Shown here piece after piece: positions 50,040 through 55,614 of a stretch of 61,901 bases of DNA (within the stretch, counting starts at the first letter, position 1; the number at the start of each line of letters is the position of its first letter). Below the pieces are notes generated by a model. It did no database searches and had not been told where the DNA came from. It saw only the letters and a program-made list of their open reading frames with translations. The position numbers and the translations under genes are program-made. Source of the DNA: Planctomycetales bacterium (GTDB taxonomy: Bacteria > Planctomycetota > Planctomycetia > Isosphaerales > Isosphaeraceae); the NCBI GenBank assembly GCA_027449865.1, contig DAIDKV010000059.1, positions 1 through 61,901 on the forward strand, written 5' to 3'.

Positions 50040-50626
50040 CCGGCAGCCGCCCCTTTGAGAATTTTTTCACGAAGTCGGCGCCTCGGGGCTTTCGCTTCGC
50101 GTCGGTGTCCGATTCCGTACACAATCCCCGTGCGACGATTGACAGACATCGGCCGGATATGTTATTTCCTACCCAGGCGAAGCGGGTGTCGGCGTTTTGA
50201 GAAATTTCCGACATGGCCCGAATTGGTCGATCCACTCATCCGGGGGCGTGCCATGCTTCCAACCCTGCGTGAGAGCCCCTCCTGACGGACGAATGGTGCG
50301 GCGGTGGTCCCTGAGATGGGGCTGCCGGCCGCTTTTTTTGTTTCGGGGCCTTTGGTGGATCGGGCTCATCGTCAGACCGCCCGCTGATCGAATCCAGCAG
50401 AGCCTTTCCCTCGGTTCTGCCTCCGCTTCCAAAGGGTCTGTTGCAGGAATCGAGTCGAGGCGCAGGGAGGCCGGTCCAGGGGACAGGGTCGAGGCCCCGT
50501 GCGCAATGTCAGTCCGGGATGCATGGAATCTTCCGGATCGGTCCACTCACGGATGATCATCGAACGCATTACAACCACCCTCGCGGGACTCATCTTGGAC
50601 GTCGCGGGGTGTCGGAGTGGTACCGT
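50040..50626. other. Divergent intergenic region before the DUF4912 gene
   Basis: About 590 bases with no supportable gene. On the plus strand a TTGACA (50139-50144) stands alone, with only a weak -10 (TTATTT) 17 bases on, too far upstream to be sure it drives the DUF4912 gene. The open frame that continues upstream of 50627 has no ribosome site and unlikely composition. No RNA structure was recognised. Confidence 0.4.
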
Positions 50627-51727
50627 ATGACCGTCGATGCACTCAAGGACTGCAATAAGAAGGACCTGGCCCGGCTGGCGAAGGATCAGGGGATTCCTGG
50701 TTGGCATGCCATGCGTAAAGACCAGTTAATCCGGGCCCTGACGGCTCCCCGGAAGTCGGCATCCCGTTCGAAGGCCGGCCATCGCCCGGGTTCGGCTTCG
50801 CCACGGAAGGAGTCGAGCTCGACTCGACCTGTTACCGCCGGGGTTCGGACGAACGGGCATGCCTCGACCCCCGCGCCGATGGTGCCGGCGGCACTTCCGG
50901 CATCGAAGCTCGATCACGCTCACCAGAAAGACCGGATCGTCGTCCTGACCCGTGATTCGTACTGGCTGCACGCTTACTGGGAGCTGAGCCGATCGACCCT
51001 TGCCCGCGCCCAGGCGGCGCTCGGCCAGGAATGGCATACCGCGAGACCGATTCTGCGACTGATGGACGTCTCCAGCGAGGACACCACCTCGGCCACCGAG
51101 CGGCATGTTCGCGATATTCCGATCCACGGCGGCGTCAATAATTGGTACATCGATGTGGTCGAGCCTCCTCGCTCGTATCGCATTGACCTCGGTTACCTTT
51201 CTCGACGGGGGAAGTTCTACGTTCTCGCCCGATCGAACGTGGCCACCACACCGAAGGTTGGCGTGGCGGATCCGCTCGACCAGAACTGGCTGGATGTCCA
51301 GAAGCAGATTGACCGCATCGAGACGCCGGCCACCACGGGTGGTGGAGTCGTTGCCAATCCCTCCGCGATCGACCTTCGGGACCTCTTCGAGGAGCGGCTC
51401 CGTCGGCCGATGAACAGCCTCTCGCTCCAGAGTCTGGCGGCCTCGGCCTTTCCGGTCTCGAATCGGGACTTCCATTTTCGGATTGATGCCGAATTGATTG
51501 TCTACGGGGCCACCGAGCCGAATGCCCATGTCACCCTCCAGGGTGAGCCGGTCCAGCTCCGCCCCGACGGGACATTCACGGTCCGATTCAGCCTCCCGGA
51601 CTCTCGTCAGATCATCCCGGCCGTCGCCTCGAGTGCCGATGGCGTTGAGGAACGGACGATTGTGCTGGCCGTCGAGCGCAATACCAAGGAACTCGAGCCG
51701 ATGATCCACGAGAACAGCGAGCTTTGA
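50627..51727 (+). CDS. DUF4912 protein with Rho-N/SAP-like N-terminal domain
   Basis: Start set at ATG 50627 (GGAGTGG upstream), giving 366 residues. Residues 1-40 form a Rho N-terminal/SAP-like helical module (LKDCNKKDLARLAKDQGIPG, then MRKDQLIRAL) that often binds nucleic acid. A Ser/Arg/Pro-rich linker follows, then the DUF4912 domain with DRIVVLTRDSYWLHAYWEL, a Trp-rich strand NNWYIDVVEPPRSYRIDLGY, and a final beta-rich region (VTLQGEPVQLRPDGTFTVRF). The function of DUF4912 is not established. No membrane segment is present. Confidence 0.85.
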   Translation: MTVDALKDCNKKDLARLAKDQGIPGWHAMRKDQLIRALTAPRKSASRSKAGHRPGSASPRKESSSTRPVTAGVRTNGHASTPAPMVPAALPASKLDHAHQKDRIVVLTRDSYWLHAYWELSRSTLARAQAALGQEWHTARPILRLMDVSSEDTTSATERHVRDIPIHGGVNNWYIDVVEPPRSYRIDLGYLSRRGKFYVLARSNVATTPKVGVADPLDQNWLDVQKQIDRIETPATTGGGVVANPSAIDLRDLFEERLRRPMNSLSLQSLAASAFPVSNRDFHFRIDAELIVYGATEPNAHVTLQGEPVQLRPDGTFTVRFSLPDSRQIIPAVASSADGVEERTIVLAVERNTKELEPMIHENSEL

Positions 51728-51897
51728 TCACCGTCTGGAATCCCCGGTTCCCGGCGAACGTTCCCTCGCCGCTCTCACGCGGGCGGCGAGGGTTCTTCGG
51801 GTCCGGTGCTTGTGCCTTGCCACACCGTCGGCTTCCTACCCTGCTGTCCGTCCCTTCCACCTTCCGAATCCAACCGAAAACCGCCGCGGAGGCTCCC

Positions 51898-52701
51898 ATG
51901 AGCCAGGATCTCCGGCCCATCCTGGCCGGATGGGATTTTGACCCCGATCGCGTTCAGGTTCGCATGATCGTCGGCGACGACGGCGCCGAGAAGATCCAGA
52001 TGCGGGTCGATCTGGGCCTGATGCAGATGGAGGCGGTCGGTCGTCCCGATGGCGAGCGGCCCGAGGGCTTCGAATCGATGCTGGAGTATTACGAGGCCGC
52101 CGCCGCCTCCGACGAGAACTTCCGGCTCGGGCCGCCGGAATGTGCCATCTTGATGCGCGAGGGCTTGCAGTATTATCATCGATATCTTTCGGCCTTCCAT
52201 CTCGAACGGTTCGACTGGGTCGCTCGCGACACCGCGCGCAACCTTCGTCTCTTCGCCTTCGTGGTGAAGCACGCCGTTCGCCAGCGCGACCGGATCGAGT
52301 TTGACCGTTACCGGCCCTACGTCACGATGATGCACCACCGGGCCCTGGCCTCTCGGTTTCTGGCCGAGGAGAACCATCGCGCGGCGATCGAGACCGTCGA
52401 TGAGGGCATCGCCGCGATCCGTCGGTTCCTCGCCGATTATGGTCAGCAGGACCATGAGGGCGAATGTGGCGAGCTACAATTCCTGCTTCAGTGGCGGCAG
52501 GATCTGGATCGCCAACGGCCGCTCGGCCCGCTGGAGCGACTGGAGCAGCAGCTCGAGGTCTCGGTGAAGCTGGAGAATTACGAGGAGGCTGCCCGGATTC
52601 GCGATCAGATCCGGCGCCTCCGTGAAGGAGAGCCTCGTCGTCGGGGTACGGCTGGTCCGTCGCCTGGACCCGGTGGCGATCCCTCGCTCAGGACGCCTTG
52701 A
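51898..52701 (+). CDS. UVR-motif protein of unknown function
   Basis: Start set at ATG 51898 because GGAGG lies just upstream; the frame is open further but those residues are poor. The 267-residue protein has an acidic N-terminal half (MQMEAVGRPDGERPEGFESM), a helical middle with YYHRYLSAFHLERFDWVARD, and near the C-terminus a UVR motif (LEVSVKLENYEEAARIRDQI). UVR motifs mediate protein contacts in UvrB/UvrC and in McsA-type regulators. Function here is unknown. A Gly/Pro/Arg-rich tail ends the protein. It follows the DUF4912 gene by 170 bases on the same strand. Confidence 0.7.
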   Translation: MSQDLRPILAGWDFDPDRVQVRMIVGDDGAEKIQMRVDLGLMQMEAVGRPDGERPEGFESMLEYYEAAAASDENFRLGPPECAILMREGLQYYHRYLSAFHLERFDWVARDTARNLRLFAFVVKHAVRQRDRIEFDRYRPYVTMMHHRALASRFLAEENHRAAIETVDEGIAAIRRFLADYGQQDHEGECGELQFLLQWRQDLDRQRPLGPLERLEQQLEVSVKLENYEEAARIRDQIRRLREGEPRRRGTAGPSPGPGGDPSLRTP

Positions 52702-52750
52702 TCCGGACGCCCGACGCGGATAGATTGACGTTGTCCGGCTTGTCCGGGCA

Positions 52751-52914
52751 AGCCTCTGCCATGTTCGACAAGGGGTGGTCCTTTTGGCGAACCAACATTA
52801 AACCCGTAGGGAACCGATATCGTCCCCCTGGGGATTTTTCTCCTTGAGGGTCTCAGGTTCCCACTTGAACTGCGGGTTCTCAAAAGCACCTCAACGGCAT
52901 TGCGGCGGAGGTTT
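52751..52914 (+). ncRNA. ssrS: 6S RNA
   Basis: The region folds into one long hairpin with a central bubble, as 6S RNA does. CCTCTGCC (52753-52760) pairs perfectly with GGCGGAGG (52904-52911). GGGGTG (52772-52777) pairs with CACCTC (52887-52892), CTTTTG (52781-52786) with CAAAAG (52881-52886) and GAACC (52789-52793) with GGTTC (52875-52879). An unpaired bubble of about 15 plus 12 bases follows, then GGGAACC (52809-52815) with GGTTCCC (52856-52862) and an apical loop region. The sequence CTCTGCCATGTTCG near the 5' end and GCGGCGGAGG at the 3' end resemble E. coli 6S RNA. A terminator follows at once and a 5-formyltetrahydrofolate cyclo-ligase gene comes next, the same order as ssrS-ygfA in proteobacteria. 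6S RNA binds the housekeeping RNA polymerase and dampens transcription. A TTGACG at 52725 may be the -35 box. Exact ends are estimates. Confidence 0.85.
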
Positions 52915-52919
52915 ATTTC

Positions 52920-52962
52920 ACCCGCGGCCTGCCTCGCTCGTCGAGGTGGGGTGCGGGTTTTT
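52920..52962 (+). terminator. Rho-independent terminator of the 6S RNA
   Basis: ACCCGC (52920-52925) pairs with GCGGGT (52953-52958), with an inner CCTCG/CGAGG stem, followed by TTTTT. It ends the 6S RNA. The folate gene begins 14 bases later, so that gene would be read by partial read-through, as in the E. coli ssrS-ygfA unit. Confidence 0.85.
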
Positions 52963-52976
52963 CGTACGATTGGGCG

Positions 52977-53630
52977 ATGATCCCGATGGATGTTCCTCGG
53001 CCTGACGTCGCCACGGCTCGCCTCTGGTCCAAGCGTCAATGGCGGCGCTTCCTTCGGGATGCGATCGCCGCGCTGGAGGTTGCCGACCGATGCACTCAGG
53101 AATCCGCGATTGTCGCGTCGTTCGCTGATCTGCCCGGCTGGTCGGCCGCGGGTACGGTGCTGCTTTACGCCTCGGCCTTCCCCGAGGAAATCGAGACGGG
53201 ACCGCTCCTCGCGATCGCGTACGGGTCGGGCAAGCGAGTGGCGCTGCCCCGGGTCGACCCGATCGCGGGCCGGCTTCGGGTGTACCGGGTCGAGGATCCT
53301 CGGCACGACCTCGCACCCGGCGTCCTTGGCATTTCCGAACCCCGACCTGAGCTTCCCGAAATGGATCCCAGGGCGATCGACTGGGCTCTGGTTCCCGGTC
53401 TCGCCTTCAATGAGCAGGGCTACCGACTGGGCCGAGGCGCTGGTCATTACGACCGCCTGCTGCCGACCCTCCGGCCCGATTGCCCCTGCTGGGCGATCGC
53501 ACTGGCCTGCCAGTTGGTCGATGGTTTTCCGATCGAGTCACACGACATCGCGGTTGATGGGATCCTCACCCCGGACCGTCGCATCCGGGGTGTGGGGCGA
53601 CCGGGCGGTCAGCGTCCGCCAGCCGCCTGA
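52977..53630 (+). CDS. 5-formyltetrahydrofolate cyclo-ligase
   Basis: The 217-residue protein has the family signature GLAFNEQGYRLGRGAGHYDR (substrate and ATP binding), preceded by ALVPGLAF and VLLYASAFPEEIETGPLL. It converts 5-formyl-tetrahydrofolate to 5,10-methenyl-tetrahydrofolate using ATP. The start at 52977 is the first of two nearby ATGs; neither has a strong ribosome site. The gene lies right behind the 6S RNA terminator and its last 22 bases overlap the end of the convergent DUF6807 gene. Confidence 0.92.
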   Translation: MIPMDVPRPDVATARLWSKRQWRRFLRDAIAALEVADRCTQESAIVASFADLPGWSAAGTVLLYASAFPEEIETGPLLAIAYGSGKRVALPRVDPIAGRLRVYRVEDPRHDLAPGVLGISEPRPELPEMDPRAIDWALVPGLAFNEQGYRLGRGAGHYDRLLPTLRPDCPCWAIALACQLVDGFPIESHDIAVDGILTPDRRIRGVGRPGGQRPPAA

Positions 53631-55254: not shown

Positions 55255-55614
55255 ATGGCGAAGCGGCTTTACGTTGGGAACCTGAAGTACACGGTCACTT
55301 CCGAGGAACTGCAGGAGCTGTTCGAACAGTACGGGACGGTGAGCAGCGCGCAGGTCCTGAGCGACCGCGAGACGGGTCGGAGCCGGGGTTTCGGCTTCAT
55401 TGAGATGACGAACGACGACGAGGCCCTGGCGGCCATCGAGAGCCTGGACGGCCAGGATCACGGCGGCCGGCGGCTCACGGTCAACGAGGCACGTCCCCGG
55501 ACGCCAGGTGGTGGCGGCGGAGGCGGTGGTGGTGGCTATCGCGGCGGTGGCGGCGGTGGCGGCGGTGGCGGCGGTGGCGGCTATCGCGGTGGCGGTGGCT
55601 ACGACGAGTATTGA
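55255..55614 (+). CDS. RRM-domain, glycine-rich RNA-binding protein
   Basis: The 119-residue protein is a single RNA-recognition motif with RNP2 LYVGNL and RNP1 RGFGFIEM, followed by a tail of glycines interrupted by YRGG and ending GYDEY. It matches the bacterial RRM/glycine-rich proteins of cyanobacteria and planctomycetes, which are usually cold-induced and bind RNA. A strong promoter lies about 180 bases upstream, so the mRNA has a long 5' leader, as in cold-regulated rbp genes. The ribosome site next to the ATG is weak. Confidence 0.92.
   Translation: MAKRLYVGNLKYTVTSEELQELFEQYGTVSSAQVLSDRETGRSRGFGFIEMTNDDEALAAIESLDGQDHGGRRLTVNEARPRTPGGGGGGGGGGYRGGGGGGGGGGGGGYRGGGGYDEY

Follow-up and report, generated by a model that had tools for sequence, protein, structure and literature searches.

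A 6S RNA gene precedes the 5-formyltetrahydrofolate cyclo-ligase gene in the planctomycete family Isosphaeraceae

The stretch of DNA analysed here (the window; 61,901 nucleotides, Planctomycetales bacterium, GCA_027449865.1, contig DAIDKV010000059.1) carries at positions 52750-52915 what is, judged from its sequence, a genuine 6S RNA gene. 6S RNA is a small RNA by which resting bacteria sequester their RNA polymerase. The 6S gene is followed directly by a gene for 5-formyltetrahydrofolate cyclo-ligase (FCL), i.e., the known 6S-FCL pairing is found here in a further, distant bacterial lineage. We are highly confident that region 52733-52962 is best explained as an ssrS gene with its own promoter, a polymerase-binding rod, release via a product RNA (pRNA), a terminator, and read-through to FCL. 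The features are:

51724-52701 (+): gene of a UvrB/UvrC-motif (UVR) protein (PF02151), upstream of 6S in most Isosphaeraceae relatives
52698-52703 (+): -35 element TTGATC of the 6S promoter, overlapping the stop codon of the UVR-motif gene (from motif conservation)
52721-52726 (+): -10 element TAGATT after a 17-nt spacer, predicted start site near G52733 (from motif conservation)
52731-52751 (+): leader hairpin UUGUCCGG-CUUGU-CCGGGCAA, a hairpin being at the same place in most family members
52750-52915 (+): 6S RNA core (RF00013) with closing stem, central bubble and apical stem-loop (from covariance-model match, fold and covariation)
52796 (C, +): predicted template position +1 for the pRNA 5'-GUUGGUUCGCC... 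(from alignment to RF00013)
52920-52962 (+): intrinsic terminator between 6S and FCL, hairpin 52920-52958 (-29.5 kcal/mol) with T run to 52962
52977-53630 (+): FCL gene (ygfA/MTHFS homologue), 217 aa (PF01812, TIGR02727)

Scanning the whole window with cmscan, the Rfam family RF00013 (6S/SsrS) matches the core region over its full model (1-187, E 3.3e-6), which is the sole Rfam match above the gathering score. The score of 46.6 bits is hardly above that cut-off (46.4). Like RF00013, the window copy shows the closing stem, the bubble and the 3' bubble strand CCACYUGAAC...GGGUUC. No second 6S copy is present in the window's genome (8.48 Mb). The segment 52748-52917 folds at -68 kcal/mol (z = -3.73), and none of 200 shuffled sequences is equally stable. 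A preceding sequence-only reading had placed a 6S RNA at 52751-52962 and named the covariance model as a check. The match bears out the identity but not the start, as the promoter (52698-52726) and the leader hairpin lie further 5'.

In contrast to RF00013, for which Isosphaeraceae copies score near the cut-off and are missed in part, a family-specific covariance model built from 16 Isosphaeraceae members (R1) detects 6S in 42 of 45 Isosphaeraceae genomes with 83-162 bits. The RF00013 cut-off is passed by 21 of 40 relatives, which take in other families too. For 39 aligned family copies, whose alignment was fitted to the model and thus favours the structure, standard pairs are found in 97.4% of the pair cells (93.0% when shuffled), two-sided changes affect 14 pairs and 66 cells (6.0 and 12.2 when shuffled), and the observed covariation level is reached by none of 500 shuffles. 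Sliding the partners as a control reduces pairing to 41-54%. That is, the rod with two stems around a central bubble is preserved by compensatory changes across the family. In two congeners, 165-166 of the 166 nt of the RNA are identical while the FCL proteins show 75-77% identity.

Beyond the family, R1 and RF00013 independently pick the same places (e.g., in genomes G025, G027, G029 and G038). R1 also reports 6S candidates in three class members without RF00013 match (G296, G300 and G312; E 9e-9, 3e-11 and 3e-7, respectively). Given these candidates, 6S may be commoner in Planctomycetia than reported. No 6S was reported in Thermogutta, and its absence is cited for Pirellula and Rhodopirellula (PMC5673643). 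Within the open-access literature, we found nothing on 6S in Isosphaera or on Isosphaeraceae or planctomycete 6S synteny.

The 6S RNA is a gene in its own right, preceded by a promoter of sigma70 type. A sigma70-like motif (TTGN3-N16/18-TAN3T) is located upstream of 6S in 42/42 Isosphaeraceae copies. As controls, the 75 nt still further 5' and the 75 nt that follow 6S contain it in 0/42 copies each, and the shuffle mean is 1.1. A strict sigma70 consensus scan did not report the promoter of the window, since it shows just 8/12 consensus matches, such that the call rests on conservation. The distance of the -10 element to 6S varies in other planctomycete families.

From the promoter we infer a start site near 52733, which coincides with the base of the leader hairpin. 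The hairpin is probably transcribed. Its sequences differ between family members (GTCCGG..., GTCTGG..., GTTCAG...) yet stay paired in most of them; it is missing or weak in G007, G009, G335 and G336. We also considered whether the hairpin marks linkage to FCL and rejected this, because it is absent not only from G007 and G009, where 6S and FCL are unlinked, but also from G335 and G336, where they are adjacent. It thus tracks the clade and not the linkage.

To place the pRNA, we take U44 of E. coli 6S to be the counterpart of C52796. In the 38 alignment rows holding GAACC, the sequence of the 5' bubble strand is GAACCRRY, and the +1 position is a pyrimidine in all of them. The pRNA predicted from C52796 has GG at positions 4/5, which is described for other 6S RNAs (PMC8414754). 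The bubble strands (within 52784-52905) can also pair mutually (ACCCGUA with UGCGGGU) in most family members. The most stable fold of the window copy rearranges the bubble and is nearly equal in energy to the fold with enforced 6S pairing (-65.7 vs. -64.4 kcal/mol). The collapsed bubble could be the release conformation.

The T-tailed terminator expected downstream of the RNA is found as listed, and is picked up by a consensus scan as well. Most family members show a similar terminator before FCL, while a recognisable one is lacking in a few. The terminator of E. coli ssrS is said to depend on Rho (Chae et al. 2011 as cited in PMC7641849); the window differs by its intrinsic terminator and by the leader hairpin at the predicted 5' end. 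From the end of the T run to the FCL ATG at 52977 there are 14 bases, the distance at which a ygfA homologue had been claimed. Its product matches PF01812 (118.5 bits) and TIGR02727 MTHFS_bact (131.9 bits, cut-off 84.9). Given this short distance past the terminator, FCL is probably reached by read-through. Further downstream, 55255-55614 encodes a small RRM RNA-binding protein with glycine-rich tail (NF058537 Rbp_regulator).

Taken together, we propose the following course. Transcription from the sigma70-type promoter would yield a long rod whose central bubble mimics an open promoter. As growth slows, the RNA most likely binds the housekeeping RNA polymerase holoenzyme, from which it would be released on outgrowth via a short product RNA made from the bubble. 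The terminator would stop most transcripts, and FCL, which has no visible promoter of its own, would probably be expressed by read-through, as ygfA from ssrS in E. coli. Read-through implies that 6S and FCL are co-expressed, rather than that FCL is controlled by an RNA fold. Points that weigh against this explanation are the near-threshold RF00013 score, the rearranged bubble in the most stable fold, and the few family members with no recognisable terminator. The arrangement resembles ssrS-ygfA of E. coli and other Proteobacteria, i.e., 6S with its own promoter lies immediately upstream of a same-strand FCL gene with probable read-through; for E. coli, a dicistronic ssrS-ygfA transcript is described (PMC7641849). 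In contrast to Proteobacteria, Isosphaeraceae have the UVR-motif gene upstream in place of zapA.

The gene order is highly conserved within the family. The same 42 Isosphaeraceae genomes hold both 6S and FCL, and in 40 of the 41 with both on the same contig, FCL follows on the same strand, with at most 281 nt between the model end and the FCL domain. The claim of an ssrS-ygfA order in a distant lineage therefore stands. Exceptions are G009 with FCL at 1.2 kb and G007 with FCL on another contig. Both genes are missing from G002, whose contig ends just after the DUF4912 and UVR genes. We reject a loss in G002, since a contig end beside the UVR gene implies an assembly break. The assemblies of G329 and G337 are incomplete (68% and 77%). 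In the window, the DUF4912 protein is encoded at 50441-51727 as part of the conserved order DUF4912-UVR-6S-FCL, the beginning of which the truncated G002 contig shows as well; G009 (locus L206) has DUF4912 directly 5' of 6S.

Among 292 Planctomycetota genomes, RF00013 matches 128, FCL is found in 101, and both are present in 44. Within these 44, adjacency is seen only in the two sampled Isosphaeraceae (G086 shows a distance of 1.4 kb), where 29 of the 44 have 6S and FCL on different contigs such that assembly breaks could hide a few adjacencies. Outside Isosphaeraceae, planctomycete 6S often follows pheT and/or precedes rarA. We observe 6S beside rarA in loci L001, L002, L004, L006-L008, L037, L043, L048 and L049, and beside pheT in L033-L035, L038, L044, L053-L055 and L060. 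The neighbourhood with rarA recalls Firmicutes, i.e., rarA adjoins 6S in lactic acid bacteria (PMC8414754), where it is located upstream and not downstream as in these planctomycetes. Genome G086 (L251) combines both neighbours in the order pheT-6S-rarA-FCL. In contrast, neither pheT nor rarA is beside 6S in the Isosphaeraceae context.

In other phyla, ygfA adjoining 6S is recorded for alpha-, gamma- and some beta- and deltaproteobacteria as well as some Firmicutes (PMC9130861). Within 80 FCL loci, which were picked by similarity to Isosphaeraceae FCL and are thus not a fair sample, 6S precedes FCL at a distance of up to about 300 nt in Isosphaeraceae, Methylomirabilota (L082, L088), Atribacterota (L108), Omnitrophota (L103) and Myxococcota (L131); in five other Omnitrophota the distance is about 1.6-3 kb. 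The Omnitrophota loci L084, L089, L092 and L104 show the order pheT-6S-rarA-FCL-rny-TIGR00282, which L103 shares without rarA; L080 reads 6S-rarA-...-FCL-rny. In Methylomirabilota L082 and L088 we find pheT, zapB-like, zapA-like, 6S, FCL and rny, plus a gene for a TIGR00282 phosphoesterase, which is complete in L082 and matches partially in L088; the zapB-like and zapA-like frames were identified by eye and not by profile. The order pheT-(zapB-like)-(zapA)-6S-(rarA)-FCL-rny-TIGR00282, seen with varying completeness, joins the firmicute 6S-rarA with the proteobacterial zapA-6S-FCL context.

These shared flanks argue for an old 6S-FCL neighbourhood in the lineages of Methylomirabilota, Omnitrophota and G086. 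The suggestion of a link that is old or was selected repeatedly agrees with the finding of 6S beside FCL in Methylomirabilota, Myxococcota, Atribacterota and Omnitrophota; within Planctomycetota it fits less well, as close adjacency is seen in Isosphaeraceae only and the old flanks are gone there. A recurrent or ancient 6S-FCL link across phyla is thus partly supported by the gene orders, with close adjacency in one planctomycete family, which may have kept or rebuilt part of the old shared neighbourhood.

Whether the Isosphaeraceae pair is what remains of an ancient pheT-zapA-6S-(rarA)-FCL-rny neighbourhood after loss of the other genes, or a new juxtaposition, has to be weighed against the same gene orders. 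The clusters in Methylomirabilota (L082, L088), Omnitrophota (L084, L089, L092, L103, L104) and G086 as well as the pheT-6S or 6S-rarA pairs kept in many other planctomycetes are what a remnant would predict. On the other hand, Isosphaeraceae 6S has neither pheT nor rarA as neighbour (rarA of the window's genome is on another contig), 6S and FCL lie apart in those other families of the class in which the two are present, and the FCL tree gives Isosphaeraceae FCL no firm placement with any group. We consider a remnant a real possibility but lean slightly against it. Still more tentative, and rather unlikely when taken as a whole, is a joint scenario in which an ancient pheT/zapA/6S/(rarA)/FCL/rny/TIGR00282 neighbourhood, visible in Methylomirabilota, Omnitrophota and a deep planctomycete, gave rise to proteobacterial 6S-FCL and firmicute 6S-rarA as its parts, while Isosphaeraceae kept or rebuilt 6S-FCL and added the 5'-terminal hairpin.

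Alternatively, the 6S-FCL unit, or its FCL, might have reached Isosphaeraceae by gene transfer from Proteobacteria. A quick tree joins Isosphaeraceae FCL with Burkholderiales FCL (SH-aLRT 85), and the best non-Isosphaeraceae FCL matches are from Betaproteobacteria/Burkholderiales with 37-47% identity, compared to 26-37% for the other listed planctomycete FCL loci. However, the AU test does not reject a grouping of Isosphaeraceae with other Planctomycetia (p 0.82), and the unconstrained search had overlooked the better tree. Furthermore, the protein similarity may stem from shared high G+C, and R1, despite its training on Isosphaeraceae, also detects 6S RNAs of other planctomycetes. We thus regard a transfer as unlikely.

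A cis-acting FCL leader (folate/one-carbon riboswitch or attenuator) at 52750-52915 in place of a trans-acting 6S RNA would suit a structure that lies directly 5' of FCL with a terminator between and little space for FCL's own promoter, but is most improbable, given that RF00013 matches at full length, that the same RNA occurs without adjoining FCL in G007 and other planctomycete families (often near pheT/rarA), and that a search of 52650-53050 down to E 5 yields no match to a riboswitch family, be it the THF riboswitch or another. Besides 6S, the search lists a single match at E<=5, which is at chance level (Streptomyces-metH, 15.2 of 50 bits).

With the RNA read as 6S, the family-specific model R1 fills a gap left by the Rfam model for Planctomycetota, in which 6S is poorly covered. 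Since the proteobacterial (6S-FCL) and the firmicute (6S-rarA) contexts are joined in one neighbourhood, the age of the 6S-FCL link becomes testable. If the neighbourhood is ancient, the linkage would reflect selection for co-expressing an RNA of dormancy with the enzyme that, on outgrowth, makes stored 5-formyl-folate available again.
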